Positions 20,501 to 53,779 of a DNA stretch of 64,000 nucleotides are shown here, one piece after another. The translations under genes were made by a program, and so were the position numbers. The notes under the pieces were generated by a model that made no database searches, had not been told where the DNA came from, and saw only the letters and a program-made list of their open reading frames with translations. Every line of letters begins with the position of its first letter. The stretch's first letter is position 1. The stretch is from Schizochytrium sp. TIO01 (Eukaryota; Sar; Bigyra; Thraustochytrida; Thraustochytriidae). The DNA is taken from contig SMSO01000035.1 of assembly GCA_004764695.1 (NCBI GenBank), positions 4,097,040-4,161,039 of the forward strand, written 5' to 3'.

Positions 20501-23500
20501 AGGAAGTGTCTGACACAAACATTGTTGTAACTCGAAATTATGGTTCTGGCACCCCAGTCATCAATATTTACGCATCCTCTTGTAGTTCCTCTTTAGCGAG
20601 TGGTGTGACTGTGACCCGCTCAGATTCGTTACATTGGTTGTGTAGCTGGCTGTGTCTTTCAAGCGTTTCTGTTGCTTCTTTAGAAGTGTCAACTACAACA
20701 ATTCTGCAAGGCTATGTCTTAGATAGTAGCGGTAGCGCTGTTGAGAACGCATATATTCGGTTTTGGTCTCAGCGCAGGGGATCTTGTTCTGATACCTCCG
20801 GGCGCTCCTCATCGTGTGATGATGTATCCTGCTCAGACTATGACAATGTATACTCTTCATGTACAACAGATAATGAAGACTGTTGCACATGGAGTGAAAC
20901 CGATGACATTTTGGTTACATCCTGTACCGATGGGGATGCATCAACTACATCACTCGTTGATACGACTGACTCCGAAGGCTATTTTTATGTTGCTATCCCA
21001 GAGATTGAAGATTCTTCAAGTGATGCATCCAAGTTCCGGCTGACGTATACCATTTCTCACGATGATTATACTACGAACCAAGGTAATGTTGCAACGGTCA
21101 CTGTCGGCTCTACTACAACACTTTCCAATGTTACATTGGTATCTAAGTCTCTGACTGCCTGCTCTTGTTCGTCCTACGATTCTGATGACGCTAGCGGAGA
21201 ACATAAATTATGTAAGAATCCAGTCTCGGGAGCATGTCGAAGAGTAGACAACAGCCGATCATGCGCGTCTTATTCAGATCGAGAAGCGTGTGACAATACT
21301 GTCACATCTGCCCCAACAATCGCGCCAACAAAGAGCCCGACTTCAGCATACCTCACACAAGGTAATCTTGCAGATAGTGCATTGGTGTTGAACAGCAATT
21401 ATATCCTCGAATTCAACATTTCACTCCATGAAGTGTTTTCAGATTGGAGAAGTGTTCTTCGGCGTGGAACTTCTGACAATATGCGCGCCCCTGCCATTTG
21501 GATTTACCCTGATACTCCAAAATTACATGTACGAGTTTCCACAAGTTACAGCTACAATGAAGGATGCGATCCTTCTGATATTCTTGAGTATGATACTGAA
21601 TACGCAGTTAGAGTAGATGTATACCTGAATACCCTTAAAGTGTATATCAACAATGAACTTTCCTGTAGTAAGGATCTCTGGGGCACTATTGCCTACATGG
21701 ACGTGGCTGAGCCGCTGTATATATCAGCGCCAGACTATAGCCCGGCTTCATGCTCTCTTCATGATGTAGTATGGTCGAATATAACTGATCGCCCGACTCC
21801 ATCACCTACTGCAGCAATCCCGTACACAACAGTGGGATACGTGGTTGATACAATTAACTTAGGCAAAAATTGGGCGTTCTCGATGACTTTGAGCGTTTGG
21901 AGTTCCACAACCTCATGGGTTAATATTCTCCATTATGGTAACAGCAGATGGGACGAGCGTCTTTGGGTTGTATGGGTGCTACCTGGGACGACCAAACTAG
22001 CTATACGTCTAAACACTGTGTCGAATAAAGACATTGGTTGTGATACAGCTGAAGCACTTACAATCGGCCAGGAATACAATATATACTTCGAAGTATTTGC
22101 AGAGAAACTCGAAGTGTATATCGATGACCAACTATCTTGCTCCAAAGAGCTTTACGACGAAAATTATGCGAGTAATGGAAAGGAAAATCTCTATATGAGT
22201 GGTCCTTGGTATGCTGCAGCGCCAGTAAAAGCCACAAACCTTGCATGGACAAATATTACAGACCGCCCTACCCCTGCGCCAACTAGCTACCCTCAGCTTA
22301 CTCAAGGAAATGTTGTTGATGTTGTGACATTAGGAAAAAGCTGGTTTATGGATTTTGACGTCACTCTGTACAAAAAAACATCTGTGTGGACTAACCTAAT
22401 TCAGGTTGGAAACCAAGATTCTTATCGAGGACCTGCAGTTTACTTTTACCCATCGTCGACACGTCTTCATGTTCGAACAGGAATTGTTGATGCTTACAAT
22501 GCGGGTTGTGACCCTCCAAACTACCTTGAGATTGGCCAAGAATACCATGTTCGACTTGAATTTATGATTGACTCCCTCGAGGTGTTTCTCGATGGCACAA
22601 GTGTTTGCCAAATAACATTTTTATCTTCGTTTCAGGTTAGAACAGATCAGAATGTTTATATCTCGAACCCCTGGACGGAACCAGCAAAAGCAACTGTATC
22701 TGCTATCTCATATGGAAATTTGACCAACACTGCAACACCAGCGCCAACGGCTCCTCGTCTCTCATCTGGCAATGAACTTTTCGGAGTTACGCTGAGCACA
22801 AGCTGGATAATGAGCTTTGACGTTATTGTGTACAAAAAGCAAACAGCAACTGCGACACTGATTCAAGTGGGAGAGAGTATTCAACAACGTGTCCCATTCG
22901 TTGGATTATTGCCCTATTCATCTTCACTTCAGGTGCGGCTTTCTACAACAGACTATTGGAACGATGGGTGTAGTGTCGATGCACAACTTGAACTTGATCA
23001 ATCATATCATGTAGAAATTCGACTGATCGCACAGATTTTGTCAGTCTATATCGATGGTCAGCTTGCATGCCAAGAAGCTCTTTCAGCACCTATGATTGAA
23101 TACGGATATCTGCCTGTGTACAGTGCTCCTTCGTGGGGTACCCCAGCCTACGCAGATGTCTCCAGTCTAACTTTTCAGAATATTGCATGCGAAGTATGCA
23201 GCTCTGCAACCCTGCAAGTTCGTTGTGACAATTACCTTCGATTTCGACAATATGAGATTGTTAATGGTGCATATGCGCTTACAACTGCAGAGCCTTCTTC
23301 AGGGTCTTATGATATGACAGACTGGCAAAGAACATGGAGTGAGACTATTTCTATTACCTCTACGACAAAGCTCGAATTCGAGTGTAAAGACGTCGGCGTG
23401 GTCGGAGCGTTTGCAGCAAAAGTTGAGGCGTGTGGAGAGACTTTCATTACTGGAACAGACACAACATTTGAGAATACGAAAACTCCGTTTCACTTTTTCA

Positions 23501-26500
23501 TTAATGAGAACAAGACGGACGCATCAGAAACAAGTCTTGTTTATTATGCCATGGGCACTGGAAGATGGGGAACAACAACCAAAGGCAGTAACACGTTGCT
23601 AGACGCTAGCATTATGTGGGTGTGGAATCATGAAACATGGAACACGATGACGTTCGGATTTAACATTGGATGCCAGTTTCCGCGAACCTTGTCGCCTACT
23701 GTGGCCCCCACTGTTCTCACAGATAATCCTACTTTAACACCAACCGAAAGTCCAACGCTATCACCAACTAATTTTCCTACAGTGAACCCCACGGTATTTC
23801 CTACACAGACACCTACGGGTTATCCCACACAGGCTCCTACAAGTGCACCAACTGAAAATCCGACCAACCATCCTACACTTGCGCCAACCCAGAATCCGAC
23901 GCCTCCAACTCTCAGCCCTACATTGTTTCCAACAGGAGGTCCCACAGATGCACCAACGCCTCCAACTCTAAGCCCAACGGATGCACCAACAGATGCACCA
24001 ACAGATGCACCAACACCTAAACCAACAGATGCGCCCACAGATGCACCAACAGATGCGCCCACGGTGTCACCGACAGATGCGCCTACAATGTCTCCTACAA
24101 ACGTTCCAACGTTAAAACCTACGAACTACCCGACCCTAGCTCCAACGCTGGCCCCTACACTTAACCCAACGGATGCTCCCACAGACTCTCCGACTTTGGC
24201 ACCTACCGAATCACCAACTCCAAAGCCGACAAACTTTCCAACGTTGTCCCCCACCGATGCACCAACTCTGTATCCGACAGATGCTCCCACGCTGAATCCT
24301 ACAAACTTTCCTACTCTGAGCCCGACACAGGCACCGACACTGTCACCAACAAACTCGCCTACACCTGCTCCAACGCCACCAACACCAAGCCCTACACAAG
24401 CGCCAACAGGAGATCCCACGTTAGCTCCAACACCACCAACTCCTAAACCAACGTTATCTCCGACAAATTCACCAACGGATTCACCAACAAGCGCTCCAAC
24501 AGACTTTCCTACTGTGTCACCGACTGTATCACCAACAAATTCGCCTACCCCCGAACCTACTCAGACTCCAACTGTAAGCCCGACAGATGCACCAACAGCT
24601 AGCCCAACTCAATTTCCGACCCCTGCTTGTGGTGGCACCAGTTCTCGATTTTTTGTCGTTGCTGACTTTAACGATGGCCCTGACCCTAATGGGACCATCC
24701 AAGTTTCTTCAGATGTGAACACAGTCCCTACGATCTACTCAGACCTGAGTAGCGGCACAATTTACTTTACTGCACCTAGTACAACATCTTCGAGCACCGG
24801 GGCGTACACCGAATACGTTCTTACATTCGACGAGATGGAAACTCAGAATTTGGCCAGGTACGACCAGCTTTTGGTGAAGATCTCGACTCAATGCATTAGC
24901 AGCACAAGTAGCTGCGCTAGTCAGTCTGCAGCAATTGTTGCCATAATTCTAAATGATGAGAATAATGGGGCTGTGACAGTTTACTCCGACGCTGTAGACG
25001 CTTCAGGGGAGACGTCTATAAAACTAGACGATATCAGCCCAATGTCTATTGCAAATATCAATCAATATACTTTTCGGGTCTACCATACGGTTGGTACTCA
25101 GACACTTACTACCCTGGATCAAGTAAGCCTTTATGGGTGCACCACATCTCGACCTACTGGAGCACCATCTATTGCTCCGACCATGGCCCCCATTGACTGG
25201 TCGATCGAACCTTTTGCAGAAGTTTACATCACTATCGTTTCTCTAGATTGGATTTCAGAAGCAATCAAGGCTGTGGAAGAGCGAGTCGAGGCGGCCTCGG
25301 TGAGTGTTACAGGGTGGACTGATTTTGCATTTGTAAATCAATTTACTGCCGTTTGGAGCGAGTCCTTCGATCTTGTTGTAAGCGATGTAGACGGATGTGG
25401 ATTTGACGAAGAGGTTATGGAGCGGACACTCGCTGAGGCGCGTTGCGGAAACCTTCGTAGAGGAACCTTCTCGTCATGTAATGCATCACTCTCCTTGAGT
25501 GGTAGCGTAATTTCAGTCGTGATTGACCTGCACATTGGCACAATCGGAGATGCGTATATACTTGACAGACGAGAAACAGCACCAAGTTACGATGCAGGTA
25601 CAGGATTGTTCTTGACAGAATTACAATCATCTGTCGAAGGATGCTGGGCGGCATACTCTCTCATTGACGGACCCAGTGAAATAGTTGTGGAGGGGACGTT
25701 GACTTTTGAAATCAGTGTTTATGATCATGTAAACACTGGGGATGAAACCACAAACGCGCAAGGGGTAGGCCAACGAATTTCCGAGCTTCTCGGTGGTTCA
25801 GCAATTACGGATGATATCGGTTTGATGAAAGACATTCCAGATGCATCTAATATCACAGTAGAAACATGTCCTTCAAGCCGATTGTGCTCTAACAATGGTG
25901 TATGTTGTAGCACAGAAACGCAATACAGTATTGATTGTTCTGATGATGAGATTGGTCTTTGCATCTGCAATACTGGATGGGAAGGATTTGATTGTTCTGT
26001 AAATATGACAGACCATGTGCCCACCGCTGCTCCAACAAATACTCAGTGCATTCCTCGAGAAGCCTTTGGTGGTGAAGCTGCCTCTGAGGAAATTCTTGCG
26101 CTATGCGCAGAAGAAGGAGCATGCCAATCTAGTCCATTGATTTGTACTTACTGGAAGAGCGTTGATTATGATTCCGCGAATATTACTGCATGCGAGGATG
26201 GCGAATGGTTTGAGGTGTTCCATCAATTTGATTGTCAAGTGACATTTAATCTTGGTCGAACCCTCATCAATGCATTGTTTGCTCTACGGAAGATGTGGCG
26301 CTATGATATTGGGTCTGAAACATACCTTTACTATAAGTATCTTGGCAGCAGCTTACCTTCCAACTACAGTGCATATGACATGATGCTCAATGACTGGTCA
26401 AGTATGAATGGGGGACACCTTATCAACAAGAACTTCACCATTTTCTCTACAGAAGCAGATCTTGTGAACGGAACGAGTGCGTGGCAATGGAGTAACTATG

Positions 26501-29397
26501 ATGACGATGTTGGTTTTCCCCGAGATGCTCGACCAATTGCCAAGCAGAGTGACTTTGATAACACAAACCAGACCTGGACCAGCTACGTGACAAGTTATTA
26601 TTATAAATGGGCCAAGGCCCACTGCACTGTTTCACAGCACAAAACCGCCGTGAAGGAATTTGCATTTTCTTTATGTATTCCTGAAAGTGATTCTGCCTAC
26701 GCCACAGTTGCAGTAGACAGTGCAAATGCAACAACTACGACCGTTGAGACATATTCTGTATCTGGTCAAGTTCGGGACATACAAACAGGTAGTGGTGTAG
26801 AGGCACGTGTGCGCCTCTACCGAGGTAGAGTTACGGTTTGGGAGGGTCTAACTCCTCTTGAAAACACTGCTGCAACATTCACAACAGTGAGTGCAGAGGA
26901 CGATGCAACTGATGGAACCGCAGGTTTCACTAGTTGCATTTCGGCTATGAGCAACTCTTCATCTAACGACTCCGATGGAGTCTATCTTCAAAACAGCACG
27001 TTTAGCTTCGATCAGCTTTCAGCAGGAACATATACAATTGTTGTGAGTTACGAGGATGGAATAGTTGGTGAAACAGTCTTGAATACTGGAGCCTTTACAT
27101 CACGAGTCAAAACGTTTGAAATCTCTGACGATGACATAAGCTTATCATTAGATGTTATACGGACGTTGTCGAACAGCACCATGCTTATATTGATGGAGTC
27201 CGCCCTTGTTGATATTGATATGATTGTGGAGTTTGACTCTGTCAATTCGTCTGACAGTAGCAATTCTGCAACTACTACATGTGTTGTGAGTTCCAAACTT
27301 CTCGCTGATGGTGCATGTAGTTGTGGAAATGCTTATTTGGTCCGAAGTGATGACGAACTTCAAGCCAATGGTAAGGCCATTACAGCTGTTTACCTAGACA
27401 AAATCTATCAAACCGAGTACCGTTTCTATTTGGCTCGAACCAAACCCGTGTCATCAACAACGTATAAGAAGCATCGAGACGATGGACGATGTGGACCGAA
27501 TTACCCATTGGATAGCGGCGAGGCTGCCCAATGCCCTCCAATAGCAGTCACATGGGATGACGGCATTTCAAGTTTGCGGCCGTGCTGTCATATTCTCAGT
27601 GGACAATGTGGCTCAGGAGAAGCTTACTGTCTCACTCGATGGTCCATTGACTATCGCATGTTCCTTGATGATGACTGGATGACCGAATATCGTGAGGATG
27701 GTTTATGTAATCGTCCGGATCGCATGTATACCAAGTCTGATGATACAACGGTGCTAGCTAAATGTCCTGAAGATGCACCTTGTTGTAGCCCAAGCGCCAA
27801 ATGCGGATCTGAAAGCTACCATTGTGAGTCACTTCGTTCTATCGATTACCGTGAATTTTATGAATCCAGCAATAGCTCCTCCTCAACCAGCGTAGCGCCA
27901 ATAGAAGAATCCGAGGCAGAAATCCACATCTACTCAGGAAGTGCCCTTGTGCAAACGTACACACTGCCTGATTCATCGGTGAAACTAAATTATTTTGACG
28001 GCCATGTATATGAGACTGGAGTAGCAAGTTCTTCATCAACTTACATGCGAGCTTTCTGCATTGATGGATCGCTGTCGTCGCCACAGCTAAATGAATACCC
28101 TGCACCGCGGTATTTTGAGTGGAAGGGTCAATTACAAAGCATGTCAAATTCTTGTCCGGCCACTTCTGACTGCAGCTTTGTTCGAATTACAGGCTTGCTA
28201 GCAGCTTTTGAGCGAGCGGATGAGGTTGAGGTTCCAAACCTAAATGGGGTTTATGTTCGACGTTACGAAGACCAAGGGGGATTCAAAGCTTATGTAAATG
28301 CAGCTATAGATTTTGACTCAAGTTGCCGAGCTTTGGTGACAAGTCCGTCAGACGGGAAGCAGCGTTGGTATATCACCTTTGATGAATGGGACCCAGAGAC
28401 TTGTATGGAGCTTTGTGAAGATGATGATGATTGCCAAGCCGTTGCTGTGCGCTCTTGGATTGACAGCACATCTCAGGAAGCTCGCTACCGATGCACTTTC
28501 CATAAGAATATCCATCTGTGCCAAGGAGTAAAGACTTACACGTCTACATCTTCGGCGCGATCTGCAATGGTATATCAAAAGCGATCCTCTCTGGCATCAT
28601 CCGGTGTATGGTACTCACAAGTTTCATCAATGTTTTATGATGCGAGTGAGCAGGTGCATCTCTACCGTGATGAATCTGCAAACACTTGGTACATGGATAG
28701 TGATCTTGTGCCAGGCAATGGCTACTATGCTTCTGCAGTACCAAGTACAGAAAGCGAAACGCCTCCGGAATCTCCCTGGCGTTACGTAACAGACTTTTCC
28801 GCTCAGACCTCGAGTGCTCATACTGGGATTGTGACAGCTTTAGCGTTTGAAGAGGACTGTTTGGTGGGGGGAAACTATCCGACGCTCAATGGAACAGCAA
28901 ACTCATCAGGTTGTGCATGCTATGGCTCACACTCTTATAATTGCTACAACTTTTCTTGCAGTGCTATGCGTTTGCGTGTACAAGACACAGATATTTGCAT
29001 TGAGGCTGACCCCATATCTGGAGAGCTTATGAGCAACAAATGCGATACAGGGGAAACTGGTCAATTCTTCATCTATGACAAAAACTCAAGGCATCTGGAA
29101 GTGAGAGCAACGAATAATACGGACGGCATCACATACCATTATGTTGTGAGCACTGACTTCGCTTTGACACGTGTGACAAGTGCATCACAAGAAGTTACTG
29201 ATGCTTTGGAATTTGATTTAACCACGGATGGGTTTATATGCTTATATCAGGGAGATTCTGTTGCCACTTCATACACGGAAGCATCGACAGAGTATGAAAA
29301 TCAGGTTTGCGTCTTTCTAGCCTCTGCACCAGGTGATACTCCCCTGTGGGTGACTTATGATCGCCGTAGCGAATGGTCATATTTCACAGTCGTATAA
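20350..29397 (+). CDS. Giant surface protein, C-terminal ectodomain (LamG-like x4, Pro-Thr stalk, EGF-like, Cys-rich modules)
   Basis: This frame has no ATG at its start and continues the upstream protein: it opens within the poly-Ser codons (TCG TCA TCA TCA TCC near 20380-20394) that the upstream frame reads as Leu-Arg-His-His-His. A single missing base in that tract would join the two. Order of modules: CNA-B/carboxypeptidase-regulatory-like fold (20695-21150, QGYVLDSSG...TDSEGYF); four concanavalin/LamG-like repeats (21349-23187); a Cys-containing domain (23197-23670); PT stalk (23689-24627); beta-rich domains (24628-25860); an EGF-like unit (25866-26000, CICNTGWEGFDC); a second CNA-B-like unit (26755-27200, VSGQVRDIQTGSG); two hevein-like Cys clusters (27480-27640, 27690-27850; PCCS...CGSESYHC); a PAN/apple-like segment (28250-28580); and a possible ricin-like end. 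Many N-x-S/T sites. No C-terminal TM or GPI-type tail. Confidence 0.8.
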   Translation, partial: EIILFQFISSSSSSSTTVYSSWPYLCSVVSTYTSSDDLRFEVGDTNSASVEEVSDTNIVVTRNYGSGTPVINIYASSCSSSLASGVTVTRSDSLHWLCSWLCLSSVSVASLEVSTTTILQGYVLDSSGSAVENAYIRFWSQRRGSCSDTSGRSSSCDDVSCSDYDNVYSSCTTDNEDCCTWSETDDILVTSCTDGDASTTSLVDTTDSEGYFYVAIPEIEDSSSDASKFRLTYTISHDDYTTNQGNVATVTVGSTTTLSNVTLVSKSLTACSCSSYDSDDASGEHKLCKNPVSGACRRVDNSRSCASYSDREACDNTVTSAPTIAPTKSPTSAYLTQGNLADSALVLNSNYILEFNISLHEVFSDWRSVLRRGTSDNMRAPAIWIYPDTPKLHVRVSTSYSYNEGCDPSDILEYDTEYAVRVDVYLNTLKVYINNELSCSKDLWGTIAYMDVAEPLYISAPDYSPASCSLHDVVWSNITDRPTPSPTAAIPYTTVGYVVDTINLGKNWAFSMTLSVWSSTTSWVNILHYGNSRWDERLWVVWVLPGTTKLAIRLNTVSNKDIGCDTAEALTIGQEYNIYFEVFAEKLEVYIDDQLSCSKELYDENYASNGKENLYMSGPWYAAAPVKATNLAWTNITDRPTPAPTSYPQLTQGNVVDVVTLGKSWFMDFDVTLYKKTSVWTNLIQVGNQDSYRGPAVYFYPSSTRLHVRTGIVDAYNAGCDPPNYLEIGQEYHVRLEFMIDSLEVFLDGTSVCQITFLSSFQVRTDQNVYISNPWTEPAKATVSAISYGNLTNTATPAPTAPRLSSGNELFGVTLSTSWIMSFDVIVYKKQTATATLIQVGESIQQRVPFVGLLPYSSSLQVRLSTTDYWNDGCSVDAQLELDQSYHVEIRLIAQILSVYIDGQLACQEALSAPMIEYGYLPVYSAPSWGTPAYADVSSLTFQNIACEVCSSATLQVRCDNYLRFRQYEIVNGAYALTTAEPSSGSYDMTDWQRTWSETISITSTTKLEFECKDVGVVGAFAAKVEACGETFITGTDTTFENTKTPFHFFINENKTDASETSLVYYAMGTGRWGTTTKGSNTLLDASIMWVWNHETWNTMTFGFNIGCQFPRTLSPTVAPTVLTDNPTLTPTESPTLSPTNFPTVNPTVFPTQTPTGYPTQAPTSAPTENPTNHPTLAPTQNPTPPTLSPTLFPTGGPTDAPTPPTLSPTDAPTDAPTDAPTPKPTDAPTDAPTDAPTVSPTDAPTMSPTNVPTLKPTNYPTLAPTLAPTLNPTDAPTDSPTLAPTESPTPKPTNFPTLSPTDAPTLYPTDAPTLNPTNFPTLSPTQAPTLSPTNSPTPAPTPPTPSPTQAPTGDPTLAPTPPTPKPTLSPTNSPTDSPTSAPTDFPTVSPTVSPTNSPTPEPTQTPTVSPTDAPTASPTQFPTPACGGTSSRFFVVADFNDGPDPNGTIQVSSDVNTVPTIYSDLSSGTIYFTAPSTTSSSTGAYTEYVLTFDEMETQNLARYDQLLVKISTQCISSTSSCASQSAAIVAIILNDENNGAVTVYSDAVDASGETSIKLDDISPMSIANINQYTFRVYHTVGTQTLTTLDQVSLYGCTTSRPTGAPSIAPTMAPIDWSIEPFAEVYITIVSLDWISEAIKAVEERVEAASVSVTGWTDFAFVNQFTAVWSESFDLVVSDVDGCGFDEEVMERTLAEARCGNLRRGTFSSCNASLSLSGSVISVVIDLHIGTIGDAYILDRRETAPSYDAGTGLFLTELQSSVEGCWAAYSLIDGPSEIVVEGTLTFEISVYDHVNTGDETTNAQGVGQRISELLGGSAITDDIGLMKDIPDASNITVETCPSSRLCSNNGVCCSTETQYSIDCSDDEIGLCICNTGWEGFDCSVNMTDHVPTAAPTNTQCIPREAFGGEAASEEILALCAEEGACQSSPLICTYWKSVDYDSANITACEDGEWFEVFHQFDCQVTFNLGRTLINALFALRKMWRYDIGSETYLYYKYLGSSLPSNYSAYDMMLNDWSSMNGGHLINKNFTIFSTEADLVNGTSAWQWSNYDDDVGFPRDARPIAKQSDFDNTNQTWTSYVTSYYYKWAKAHCTVSQHKTAVKEFAFSLCIPESDSAYATVAVDSANATTTTVETYSVSGQVRDIQTGSGVEARVRLYRGRVTVWEGLTPLENTAATFTTVSAEDDATDGTAGFTSCISAMSNSSSNDSDGVYLQNSTFSFDQLSAGTYTIVVSYEDGIVGETVLNTGAFTSRVKTFEISDDDISLSLDVIRTLSNSTMLILMESALVDIDMIVEFDSVNSSDSSNSATTTCVVSSKLLADGACSCGNAYLVRSDDELQANGKAITAVYLDKIYQTEYRFYLARTKPVSSTTYKKHRDDGRCGPNYPLDSGEAAQCPPIAVTWDDGISSLRPCCHILSGQCGSGEAYCLTRWSIDYRMFLDDDWMTEYREDGLCNRPDRMYTKSDDTTVLAKCPEDAPCCSPSAKCGSESYHCESLRSIDYREFYESSNSSSSTSVAPIEESEAEIHIYSGSALVQTYTLPDSSVKLNYFDGHVYETGVASSSSTYMRAFCIDGSLSSPQLNEYPAPRYFEWKGQLQSMSNSCPATSDCSFVRITGLLAAFERADEVEVPNLNGVYVRRYEDQGGFKAYVNAAIDFDSSCRALVTSPSDGKQRWYITFDEWDPETCMELCEDDDDCQAVAVRSWIDSTSQEARYRCTFHKNIHLCQGVKTYTSTSSARSAMVYQKRSSLASSGVWYSQVSSMFYDASEQVHLYRDESANTWYMDSDLVPGNGYYASAVPSTESETPPESPWRYVTDFSAQTSSAHTGIVTALAFEEDCLVGGNYPTLNGTANSSGCACYGSHSYNCYNFSCSAMRLRVQDTDICIEADPISGELMSNKCDTGETGQFFIYDKNSRHLEVRATNNTDGITYHYVVSTDFALTRVTSASQEVTDALEFDLTTDGFICLYQGDSVATSYTEASTEYENQVCVFLASAPGDTPLWVTYDRRSEWSYFTVV
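21349..23187 (+). repeat. Four LamG/concanavalin-like repeats, about 155 residues each
   Basis: Units begin near 21349, 21823, 22291 and 22753. Each starts with a QGN or similar turn, then LGKSWxMxFDV, an RxPxVxxYP strand, LHVRxST, a GCDxxxxLExGQEYHV strand and finally LxVYIDGQLSC. The unit order and the 'sugar-binding sandwich' strand pattern match LamG/ConA-type lectin folds, an assignment made from pattern alone. Units are separated by short PTPAPT linkers. Confidence 0.75.
23689..24627 (+). repeat. Pro-Thr stalk: about 300 residues of xxPT repeats
   Basis: Nearly every fourth or fifth residue pair is PT, in units such as PTDAPTDAPTDAPT, NFPTLSPT and PPTPKPT. Such stalks are typical of heavily O-glycosylated, extended linkers in secreted protist proteins. 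The DNA is correspondingly repetitive (CCAACAGATGCA units around 23980-24060). The minus strand of this region reads as a GASVG repeat, which is only the complement. Confidence 0.9.
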
Positions 29398-50491: not shown

Positions 50492-53400
50492 ATGGGTTGC
50501 AGTGCATCGGTGCAGTCAGTACCAAGCGCAGCGACATTGGAAAAAAACTCCCCAACAGCAGCTTCAAAGCGTGCTTTAGCGCAAATCCGAAAGATTGACA
50601 AAACTGCTCCTCGTAAAAGGCTTGAAGACAAGGGTTCTTTTCAACTTCGTGTGCAGAACACCAAAGTAAATCTTCCTTTTGCATATGTTTCGCAAACAGG
50701 TTACTATCCAGATGAGCTAGACAAGGCAAATCAAGATTCACTTGTGGTAAGAGAAAACTTGGGTTCAAAGAATAATGAGCTTGCGTTTTTCGGTGTATTC
50801 GATGGGCACGGGAAAACCGGAGATCTGTGCTCAAACTTTGTTCGCATGGAGCTTTGGGAAAATCTTGAGAATGACGAGAAATTTCGGGAGGGAGAGTACT
50901 ATCAGGCTTTGGTTAATGCACATGTCAGAACAAATGAGGAGATGCACGAACAGGAGCGTATGCAAACATTTTCTGATATGATGAGTGGCACAACTGCTAT
51001 TTCCGCACTCTTTGAAGGGGACAAACTCTTTGTTTCAAATGTGGGTGATTCACGGGCAATTGCCATTGTCGAGCATGACGATCGTCTAGTGTCGGTCCCG
51101 TTGTCAATTGATCAAACACCCTTCCGTAAGGATGAGCGCGAGCGTGTGAAGGAATGCGGCGCACGGGTGCTGACCATGGCGCAGATTGAAGGACTGCAAG
51201 ATCCAGAAATGGACGATTATGGTGACGAAGAAGACAATGATGGCGATCCACCTCGTTTATGGTGCCACCAAGGAAATTATCCAGGTACTGCTTTCACAAG
51301 ATCCTTGGGCGATCGTGTAGCCGAATCAATTGGTGTGCATGCTATCCCAGAGATTCTAGAGCGTCAGCTAACAACTTCAGACCAGTACATTCTTCTGGCA
51401 TCTGACGGTGTATTCGAATTTATTACATCTCAGGGTGTGGTAGATATTTTCAGTCGTTTTGAGCACGATCTCCTCAATGCAGCGCGCGCAATTGTAGCTG
51501 AGGCATATCGTCAGTGGTTGCAATTTGAGACACGTACAGATGATATTACGTGTATTATTATTGATGTGCGTGGAATAGGCCGTGACCAAGTCAAGATTGA
51601 CGAGCTGCTTAAGCGCAAAGGAAGTTTTGGTGTGGAGTTCTTGGCTCAGGAGATTCGCTCTCAGCTTCACAAGCATGTTTCTGGCGAAGATATCCATGGT
51701 TTGCAGGATCCAAAGTACCTCAGCAAAATTTCCGAGAACCCAGATCCATCCAAGCTCGTCCACCTTGCATCATTCAGGCTGGACCAAGCTACCTCATTGG
51801 AACCCAAGGCTGTCACCGAGACTGCACGCAGCGAGCAAGAGGCAACTTCACATTTTACACAGAGCTTTATGTCAATGGAGTTACGGCCTGTGCGTAGAAA
51901 GGTCGCGAACAATGTTGGAGTTCTGCACTTTGACCCAAGTGAGCTGGAGGGCTATGAAATGCCTATATATGAGAAGAGCAGCGATGAACGTGAAGACCTT
52001 GAAGAAGCACTGCGTACGAACTACATGTTTGCCCACCTCAGCGATGAACAACGTAGCAAGGCTGTGTCCGCAATGGAGAAGATTGAAGTCACAGCAGGGC
52101 AGGTGGTTATCAAGCAGTTTGATAAGGGTGACAAATTTTATGTCGCAGCAAGTGGCCGATATGCTGTTGAAGTATCTGTAAATAAGATGACAGAGGATAT
52201 GACAGGCAAGATGGTCCCGATTGAAGGCGAGTACGAAGAGCCCCGCGAGATTATGGAGTACAACTGCGATGGAGATGGCTTCTTCCAAAGCTTCGGTGAG
52301 CTTGCACTTATGTACAACAAACCTCGTGCAGCAACAATTACGGCTCGCACCGATGGTGTACTTTGGGCTTTGGAGCGTAAGGCATTTCACTCAGTACTTA
52401 TGCGCGATTCTGCACATCGCCTTGTCAAGGTACTGCGAAAGGTTCAAGCCTTCAAGTCGCTTACATACAATGAGGTTGCTCGTTTGACTGATCTGCTCAC
52501 AGAACTTAGATTTAAGGAGGGTGAATACATCGTTCGCCAGGGTGATTTGGGCGATTCATTCTATGTGATCAAGAAGGGTCGAGCGAAGGTAACGATTGAC
52601 TCCGAAGATGGCGAGGAGAAGGAGGTCATGCGCCTGGCCGAATACGAGTACTTTGGAGAGCGTGCTCTCATTAACAAGGCTCCGCGTGCTGCAAACGTTG
52701 TTGCAACTGAGGATGTTGTGTGCTTGATGATTCGCAAAGAACTCTTTGATGAGGTTTTGGGGCGACTTCAGAATGTTCTCGCTGATGATGCTCGCCAGCG
52801 CGAAGCCGCCGCAGAGCGGTATCACAATGTTAGTTCCCTCAAGGACCTTAAAGTCTTTCCAGGTAGCTTCCCGATTCATTACAGCACAATATTCCGCGCT
52901 GCTGTTCGAGCCACAGTTGGAGAACGTGCTAATAAGGTTCAGTTTGTTTCTTTACGCCGCATTGTGGTACCTAAAACAGATGAGGAGGAAGATGCCAAGG
53001 CACAACTCGCTAATGAGCTTGAACTGCTTAGCAAAGTGGCCAAGCCAACGTTGCTGGCTCAATTTTGCAACGAGGAAAATCCTGACATCACATACCATGT
53101 CTACCAGCAAGAGTTTGTTGCAGACTTGGCCTCGGTTGTAGCTGAGAGATCGTTTGACTCGACATCAGCAATGCTAAGGTTTTCAATCAAGAGCATTGCC
53201 ATGGGTCTAGTGCAACTTCAACAGCATCGTGGCATTTTAAGCCGAGGTATTACACCCGAGGGTATCTTGATGGATGTGAATGGTCAACTTGTTATTTCTG
53301 ATTTCCGATATGCCAAACTCACAGCAGGTTCACGAACATTTTCTGCTTGTGGTACACCCGAGTACATGGCACCCGAGGTTATTTTAGGTTCAGGCCACGG

Positions 53401-53779
53401 ATTTGCCGCTGATTGGTGGTCTCTGGGTATTCTTTTGATTGAGTTATGCACTGGAACGACACCATTTGCAGACATGAACGAACCCACAATGTATGCTTCA
53501 ATTACTTCAAGTGAGTTTGTGGAGAAAACGCTCCTTGCTATGAGCTCTGTTATGGAGCCGCCTTGCTTGAAATTATTGAAGTCACTACTCGTCAAAGATC
53601 CAGAGAGTCGTCTCATTTTCGGACATGAGGATGAACTGGACAAGGTATCTTTCTTGGGGCGAACAAAGCTTCGGGAATCTCCATTTGAAACGCAAGCACG
53701 GAAAATTGCTGCAAATCTAATGGGTGCTGTAGAATCATCATTTTCGTCATCTGATTCAAATGAACAGAAGGAAAGGTAA
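50492..53779 (+). CDS. Protein phosphatase 2C fused to two cyclic-nucleotide-binding domains and a degenerate kinase domain
   Basis: 1,095 residues. MGCSAS is an N-myristoylation/palmitoylation type N-terminus. PP2C domain (about 55-360) keeps the metal motifs: VFDGHG (Asp104), SGTTAISALF, FTRSLGDR, LLASDGVFEF and TDDIT. Two CNB domains follow: FGELALMYNKPRAAT (about 602-616) and FGERALINKAPRAAN (about 721-735), both with the phosphate-binding Arg. The residue after that Arg is Ala, as in PKA regulatory subunits, not the Thr/Ser usual in PKG, hinting at a non-cGMP ligand. The C-terminal domain aligns with AGC/PKG kinases (ACGTPEYMAPEV, DWWSLGILLIEL) but lacks the VAIK Lys (Arg822), HRD Asp (S-R-G-I-T-P-E-G; Gly919), its Lys and Asn, and has DFR (937-939) for DFG. 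So phosphatase active, kinase probably not. The layout resembles plant PP2C-CNB-kinase proteins (the rice/Arabidopsis 'PKG'). Confidence 0.92.
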   Translation: MGCSASVQSVPSAATLEKNSPTAASKRALAQIRKIDKTAPRKRLEDKGSFQLRVQNTKVNLPFAYVSQTGYYPDELDKANQDSLVVRENLGSKNNELAFFGVFDGHGKTGDLCSNFVRMELWENLENDEKFREGEYYQALVNAHVRTNEEMHEQERMQTFSDMMSGTTAISALFEGDKLFVSNVGDSRAIAIVEHDDRLVSVPLSIDQTPFRKDERERVKECGARVLTMAQIEGLQDPEMDDYGDEEDNDGDPPRLWCHQGNYPGTAFTRSLGDRVAESIGVHAIPEILERQLTTSDQYILLASDGVFEFITSQGVVDIFSRFEHDLLNAARAIVAEAYRQWLQFETRTDDITCIIIDVRGIGRDQVKIDELLKRKGSFGVEFLAQEIRSQLHKHVSGEDIHGLQDPKYLSKISENPDPSKLVHLASFRLDQATSLEPKAVTETARSEQEATSHFTQSFMSMELRPVRRKVANNVGVLHFDPSELEGYEMPIYEKSSDEREDLEEALRTNYMFAHLSDEQRSKAVSAMEKIEVTAGQVVIKQFDKGDKFYVAASGRYAVEVSVNKMTEDMTGKMVPIEGEYEEPREIMEYNCDGDGFFQSFGELALMYNKPRAATITARTDGVLWALERKAFHSVLMRDSAHRLVKVLRKVQAFKSLTYNEVARLTDLLTELRFKEGEYIVRQGDLGDSFYVIKKGRAKVTIDSEDGEEKEVMRLAEYEYFGERALINKAPRAANVVATEDVVCLMIRKELFDEVLGRLQNVLADDARQREAAAERYHNVSSLKDLKVFPGSFPIHYSTIFRAAVRATVGERANKVQFVSLRRIVVPKTDEEEDAKAQLANELELLSKVAKPTLLAQFCNEENPDITYHVYQQEFVADLASVVAERSFDSTSAMLRFSIKSIAMGLVQLQQHRGILSRGITPEGILMDVNGQLVISDFRYAKLTAGSRTFSACGTPEYMAPEVILGSGHGFAADWWSLGILLIELCTGTTPFADMNEPTMYASITSSEFVEKTLLAMSSVMEPPCLKLLKSLLVKDPESRLIFGHEDELDKVSFLGRTKLRESPFETQARKIAANLMGAVESSFSSSDSNEQKER

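Follow-up and report, generated by a model that had tools for sequence, protein, structure and literature searches.

The window, i.e., the whole stretch of 64,000 nts that was analysed, contains an uninterrupted open reading frame of 1095 codons, which starts at an ATG and needs no intron, and each of the remaining five frames across 50492-53779 is interrupted by 30 to 84 stops. In Pfam, the encoded protein (the window protein) matches PP2C (9.5e-39), cNMP_binding in two stretches (2.1e-37) and Pkinase (residues 819-1041, 3.6e-30), which bears out the preliminary description of this locus as encoding, in one polypeptide, a PP2C phosphatase followed by a pair of cyclic-nucleotide-binding (CNB) domains and then by a kinase-like domain (Table 1). 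The first residues are presumably a motif of the N-myristoylation/palmitoylation type, and predicted starts with MG are shared by five CNB-kinase open frames (L010-L014) out of the nine compared from the same genome (L010-L018).

Genome-wide counts and relatives refer to the 64-Mb, 37-contig assembly (G000) that contains the window. Comparison by eye of 45 PP2C with 113 CNB matches, which intron-split genes would escape, revealed two open frames holding both domains, the window gene and a paralogue on contig C3 (L009). Elsewhere in the window (20506-29397), an ORF of 2963 aa carries long PTxAPTxxPT-like repeat runs and perhaps encodes an extracellular repeat protein. In the same assembly, ten tandem acyl-carrier-protein matches lie within one 2172-aa frame (G000:C4:611495-614707); such tandem domains are a hallmark of thraustochytrid polyunsaturated-fatty-acid synthases, and the assembly is probably that of a labyrinthulomycete (thraustochytrid).

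Table 1. Features of the open frame and of its predicted product.
Feature	Position in window	Strand	Residues	Remarks
ORF PP2C - CNB-A - CNB-B - putative pseudokinase	50492..53779	+	1095 aa	open frame and Pfam
MGCSAS N-terminus	50492..50509	+		N-myristoylation/palmitoylation-like, judged by eye
PP2C domain	50723..51511	+	78-340	bounds from Pfam
CNB-A	51983..52411	+	498-640	bounds estimated
CNB-A phosphate-binding motif		+	601-615	FGELALMYNKPRAAT
CNB-B	52412..52786	+	641-765	bounds estimated; Pfam stretch 672-756
CNB-B phosphate-binding motif		+	721-735	FGERALINKAPRAAN
Decayed kinase N-lobe	52844..53143	+	785-884	without Gly-rich loop and VAIK Lys
Retained kinase C-lobe	53144..53659	+	885-1056	CGTPEYMAPE and DWWSLG intact
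Dead catalytic loop	53240..53263	+	S917-R-G-I-T-P-E-G924	HRD Asp, Lys and Asn gone
DFR replacing DFG	53300..53308	+	D937-F-R939	read directly

Phosphatase and cyclic-nucleotide-binding domains

The metal-binding Asp residues and the DGH(G) motif that characterize PP2C (PPM) phosphatases are present in the window protein, and the signature residues are N80-Q81-D82, D104-G105-H106-G107, D305-G306 and T349-D350-D351, the last of these just outside the Pfam stretch. Among solved structures, the closest PP2Cs by sequence are PPM1K (3.2e-20), then the plant PP2Cs 77, 56 and 16. The two alignments to solved PP2Cs span D104 and D305, which align with their counterparts, PPM1K included; D82 and D350 fall outside them, and D82 and D350/D351 are assigned by motif only. 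With all signature residues in place, the phosphatase is predicted to be active, in agreement with the initial assessment. A further PP2C of this genome, 35% identical to that of the window, lies within a 608-aa open frame (L022, G000:C13:2481000-2485500), the N-terminal part of which resembles a CAP-Gly domain by eye.

Both CNB domains retain the Glu and Arg of the phosphate-binding motif (FGELAL..PRAAT in CNB-A, FGERAL..PRAAN in CNB-B). In each, this Arg is followed by Ala, which is more a cAMP-type than a cGMP-type choice, hence cGMP should not be assumed to be the ligand. The genome contains 20 matches to Guanylate_cyc (PF00211) domains. In the CNB-kinases L010-L015, where 12 phosphate-binding motifs were found by pattern, Ala follows the Arg in 6/12 and Ser in 2/12; therefore, some of these proteins may be wrongly named PKG.

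The two lobes of the kinase-like domain

The Gly-rich loop, VAIK Lys, HRD Asp and DFG expected of a PKG kinase are not found in the window protein. Where (H/Y)RDLKPEN is expected, Gly919 stands for the HRD Asp, Thr921 for the Lys and Gly924 for the Asn, and Arg939 turns DFG into DFR. These losses had all been noted before and were confirmed by reading the residues directly. The VAIK Lys had also been described as lost, with Arg822 in its place. Its loss stands, but Arg822 is the counterpart in one of two registers: Pfam numbering, with the profile position of the Lys as we take it to be, gives R822 and MAFFT gives V819, neither of them Lys. Since the N-lobe alignment is unreliable, R822 as a conservative replacement of the VAIK Lys was dropped.

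To score the lobes separately, leave-one-out profiles were built on eight intact-motif kinases of this genome, chosen by hand among 52 matches. Intact is here a residue criterion, i.e., the HRD Asp, the Lys and Asn of the catalytic loop, DFG and the VAIK Lys are present by alignment. L019, which carries no CNB, entered the lobe profiles only, leaving seven kinases for identities; L017 (another kinase group) and L018 (C-lobe unreadable in frame) were kept in the alignment and excluded from lobe profiles and identities. The N-lobe of the window protein scores 4.5 bits, versus 58-113 for the eight intact kinases, and its C-lobe 118.8 bits, versus 167-210. With wider bounds, the N-lobe scores 3.8 bits; of 300 shuffles, 286 were scored, and 3 of these scored as high. 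Because the N-lobe is near the shuffled level and the C-lobe still scores, the ATP lobe is a faint trace at best and the substrate lobe has been kept. This amends the preliminary description, since the N-lobe, to judge from these scores, is decayed as a whole, beyond single residues. By its residues, the kinase domain is dead, more so than had been held, and the loss of catalytic and ATP-binding features supports its prediction as a pseudokinase well. An AlphaFold2 model of residues 770-1095, aligned with four viral-contig kinases, was of low confidence (mean pLDDT 42.2, pTM 0.39).

The paralogue L009, on the minus strand of C3, encodes a protein of 1110 aa (counted from its first Met) that repeats the domain order of the window protein. 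Its catalytic loop reads A922-R-S-I-N-P-Q-T929 and DLG occupies the DFG place; at the VAIK place, LK appears in one alignment and is absent from another. As in the window protein, the HRD Asp, Lys and Asn are all lost, and both domains would qualify as inactive kinases. The lobes are split in the same way (N-lobe 0.4 bits, C-lobe 139.8 bits), and with wider bounds the N-lobe scores 0.6 bits, reached by 7 of 196 scored shuffles (300 made). L009 ends in WFKDF and so resembles several PKG-like frames, which terminate in W..(D/E)F; the window protein lacks such an end.

Between the two paralogues, identity amounts to 148/295 (50%) in the PP2C domain, 55/129 (43%) in CNB-A, 57/123 (46%) in CNB-B, 19/87 (22%; 15% in the multiple alignment) in the N-lobe and 54/163 (33%; range 33-34%) in the C-lobe. 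Among the seven intact-motif PKG-like proteins (21 pairs), the mean is 29% for the last CNB, 41% for the N-lobe and 42% for the C-lobe (C-lobe minimum 35%). Thus the C-lobes of the paralogues are less alike than those of the PKG-like kinases, whereas the opposite holds for the last CNB (44% versus 29%). This pattern of C-lobe conservation is compatible both with a weakened constraint and with a role in docking.

In a tree of CNB-B and the C-lobe from nine proteins, the window protein pairs with L009 with support 96/96, on a longer branch (1.19 versus 0.69 for L009); when labels were shuffled, 46/500 clustered equally well, as expected for two of nine rows. The best PDB match of the CNB and kinase region of the window protein is PKG 5dyk (3.7e-70), presumably the Plasmodium PKG, and that of the L009 kinase region is PKG1 (6bdl, 6e-32). 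The CNB domains and the C-lobe are hence related to PKG-type kinases. PKG shares this part with the window protein and differs in having its catalytic residues in place and no phosphatase.

Relatives in plants and oomycetes

The order PP2C, two CNB and kinase-like domain in one chain, found in the window protein and in L009, places both in a family known from plants and water moulds, though still poorly understood. In the 2010 kinome of Phytophthora infestans, PITG_08304 and PITG_09375 are described as combining phosphatase, cNMP-binding and inactive kinase domains (PMC3019232), and by this description they are like the window protein in domains. The same orientation was said to occur in plants, where the kinase was called inactive too, and the authors suggested that the kinase-like domain may help substrate binding (PMC3019232). 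P. infestans and plant examples being in print, the domain combination is not new in kind; the novelty lies in a probable thraustochytrid pair and in the lobe-specific decay established with controls. Among the literature matches listed, limited to open-licence papers, no thraustochytrid member appeared in titles or the starts of abstracts.

Arabidopsis PP2C19 (At2g20050), a plasma membrane protein of 1094 aa, has the same domain order, with the last domain treated as a protein kinase domain (PMC11775391). At2g20050 was formerly annotated PDK1;3, and a later paper reports no similarity to PDK1. Complementation is retained by PP2C19 without its kinase domain, by a form from which the two CNB domains are deleted as well, and by variants with a point mutation in one or the other CNB domain; for phototropism, the PP2C domain by itself is enough (PMC11775391). 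The complementation by truncated forms is a warning that the tail can be dispensable; the point variants were driven by the 35S promoter (PMC11775391), the strength of which may conceal regulatory effects. In the same report, the “catalytic D923” and the activation-loop T937 are 14 residues apart. In the window protein, 14 residues separate D937 of DFR from S951, and 32 separate G919 from S951. Because the D923-T937 spacing equals that of D937-S951, and an HRD Asp would be about 30 residues away, we infer that D923 occupies the DFG position, which would agree with loss of the HRD Asp in the plant members as well.

Other reports are at odds with the inactive kinase of the 2010 kinome. The rice PKG of Shen et al. 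2019, which joins PP2C and PKG-like parts as here, differs in being reported as an active kinase: according to a digest (PMC11638329), cGMP inhibits its phosphatase and stimulates its kinase activity. Similarly, five STKc-CAP PPM proteins of P. sojae, with PPM/PP2C, cNMP-binding and kinase-like domains as in the window protein, are presented as dual-activity enzymes, for which concurrent kinase and phosphatase activities are asserted (PMC10925823). In the TriTryp “kinatases”, a phosphatase is fused to pseudokinases without the HRD Asp (PMC2175518). Unlike in the window protein, this is a dual-specificity phosphatase with LRRs, and a cyclic-nucleotide domain is mentioned 0 times in the main text (PMC2175518), hence the likeness is taken as convergent.

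Scans of the viral_contigs and genome_contigs collections gave no PP2C-CNB-CNB-kinase protein; they matched one bacterial piece with the PP2C query (L023) and four kinase loci (L024-L027). In the match-holding open frames of these four loci, one of which (L026) ends at a contig edge, no PP2C or CNB was seen by eye.

Proposed function and competing explanations

The window protein may be regarded as a PP2C joined to the tandem sensor of a PKG and to the remains of that PKG's kinase. We favour, at a probability of roughly 0.55, a membrane-anchored PP2C (PPM) Ser/Thr phosphatase responsive to cyclic nucleotides, in which the dead, PKG-derived C-lobe would act as a docking or regulatory module. 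If lipidated, the N-terminus would hold the phosphatase at the membrane. The CNB tandem, lying between the phosphatase and the dead kinase, would be the obvious regulator: nucleotide binding could change its packing on the PP2C domain and on the C-lobe, and the changed packing could turn phosphatase output or substrate access up or down. In active AGC kinases, the substrate is held by the C-lobe, and here the C-lobe may offer a docking or allosteric surface, dephosphorylation being the only catalysis. The domains and residues, the selective retention of the C-lobe, the same split in the paralogue, the 96/96 pairing, the PF00211 domains of the genome and the reported cGMP inhibition in rice are consistent with such a regulated phosphatase. 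The dispensable tail of PP2C19, the kinase activity reported in rice, the mean pLDDT of 42.2 and the low C-lobe conservation argue against it. Gating of the phosphatase by cyclic nucleotides, as originally proposed, is plausible, given the Glu and Arg kept in both CNB domains and the cGMP-inhibited rice relative.

Alternatively, the kinase remnant, perhaps together with the CNB tandem, could be vestigial, and the protein a plain membrane PP2C with an eroding tail. Its near-chance N-lobe, a C-lobe conserved below the level of intact-motif kinases and the missing aromatic C-terminus all fit such erosion; the lower C-lobe conservation and the sufficiency of truncated PP2C19 (PMC11775391) keep this explanation in consideration, although we regard it as rather unlikely. 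Erosion would not predict intact CNB motifs in the two paralogues, a last CNB more alike between them than in PKG-like proteins, C-lobes that still score 119-140 bits or a frame that stays open throughout, and the complete arrangement, inactive kinase included, is reported to persist in P. infestans and plants (PMC3019232).

Returning to a regulated phosphatase, a more specific and doubtful version is that the C-lobe of the ancestral PKG became a receptor that captures the targets of active cyclic-nucleotide kinases, the CNB tandem timing their erasure by the PP2C domain. If true, a single second messenger would direct both the kinases that write the marks and the phosphatase that erases them to common sites.

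It is still less probable that kinase activity persists in an unconventional form, which would make the protein a bifunctional kinase-phosphatase, as claimed for the rice PKG (Shen et al. 2019, digest PMC11638329) and the five P. sojae proteins (PMC10925823). Here, the HRD Asp, the Lys and Asn of the catalytic loop, the VAIK Lys and the glycine-rich loop are all gone, and the oomycete and plant forms were termed inactive (PMC3019232). Hence, a “kinase domain” in such proteins should not be read as kinase activity, and dual-activity claims such as those of PMC10925823 need residue checks. A member with neither a recognisable ATP lobe nor the catalytic Asp would leave no such ambiguity: whatever effect cyclic nucleotides have must be exerted on the phosphatase. 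Finally, a prediction artefact or a mis-joined or decaying gene, to which nothing beyond the odd residues points, is hardly credible in view of the single 1095-codon open frame and a paralogue with the same domain order.

A different arrangement occurs on contig C31, where the minus-strand locus L017 (G000:C31:4472500-4477500) is a frame of the order CNB-CNB-kinase in which HRD and DFG are intact. Its 3′ end runs directly into a 519-aa PP2C open frame in a different frame, and the junction may represent overlapping genes, an unrecognised intron or an assembly frame change. If the two form one gene, its order would be the reverse, CNB-CNB-kinase-PP2C.
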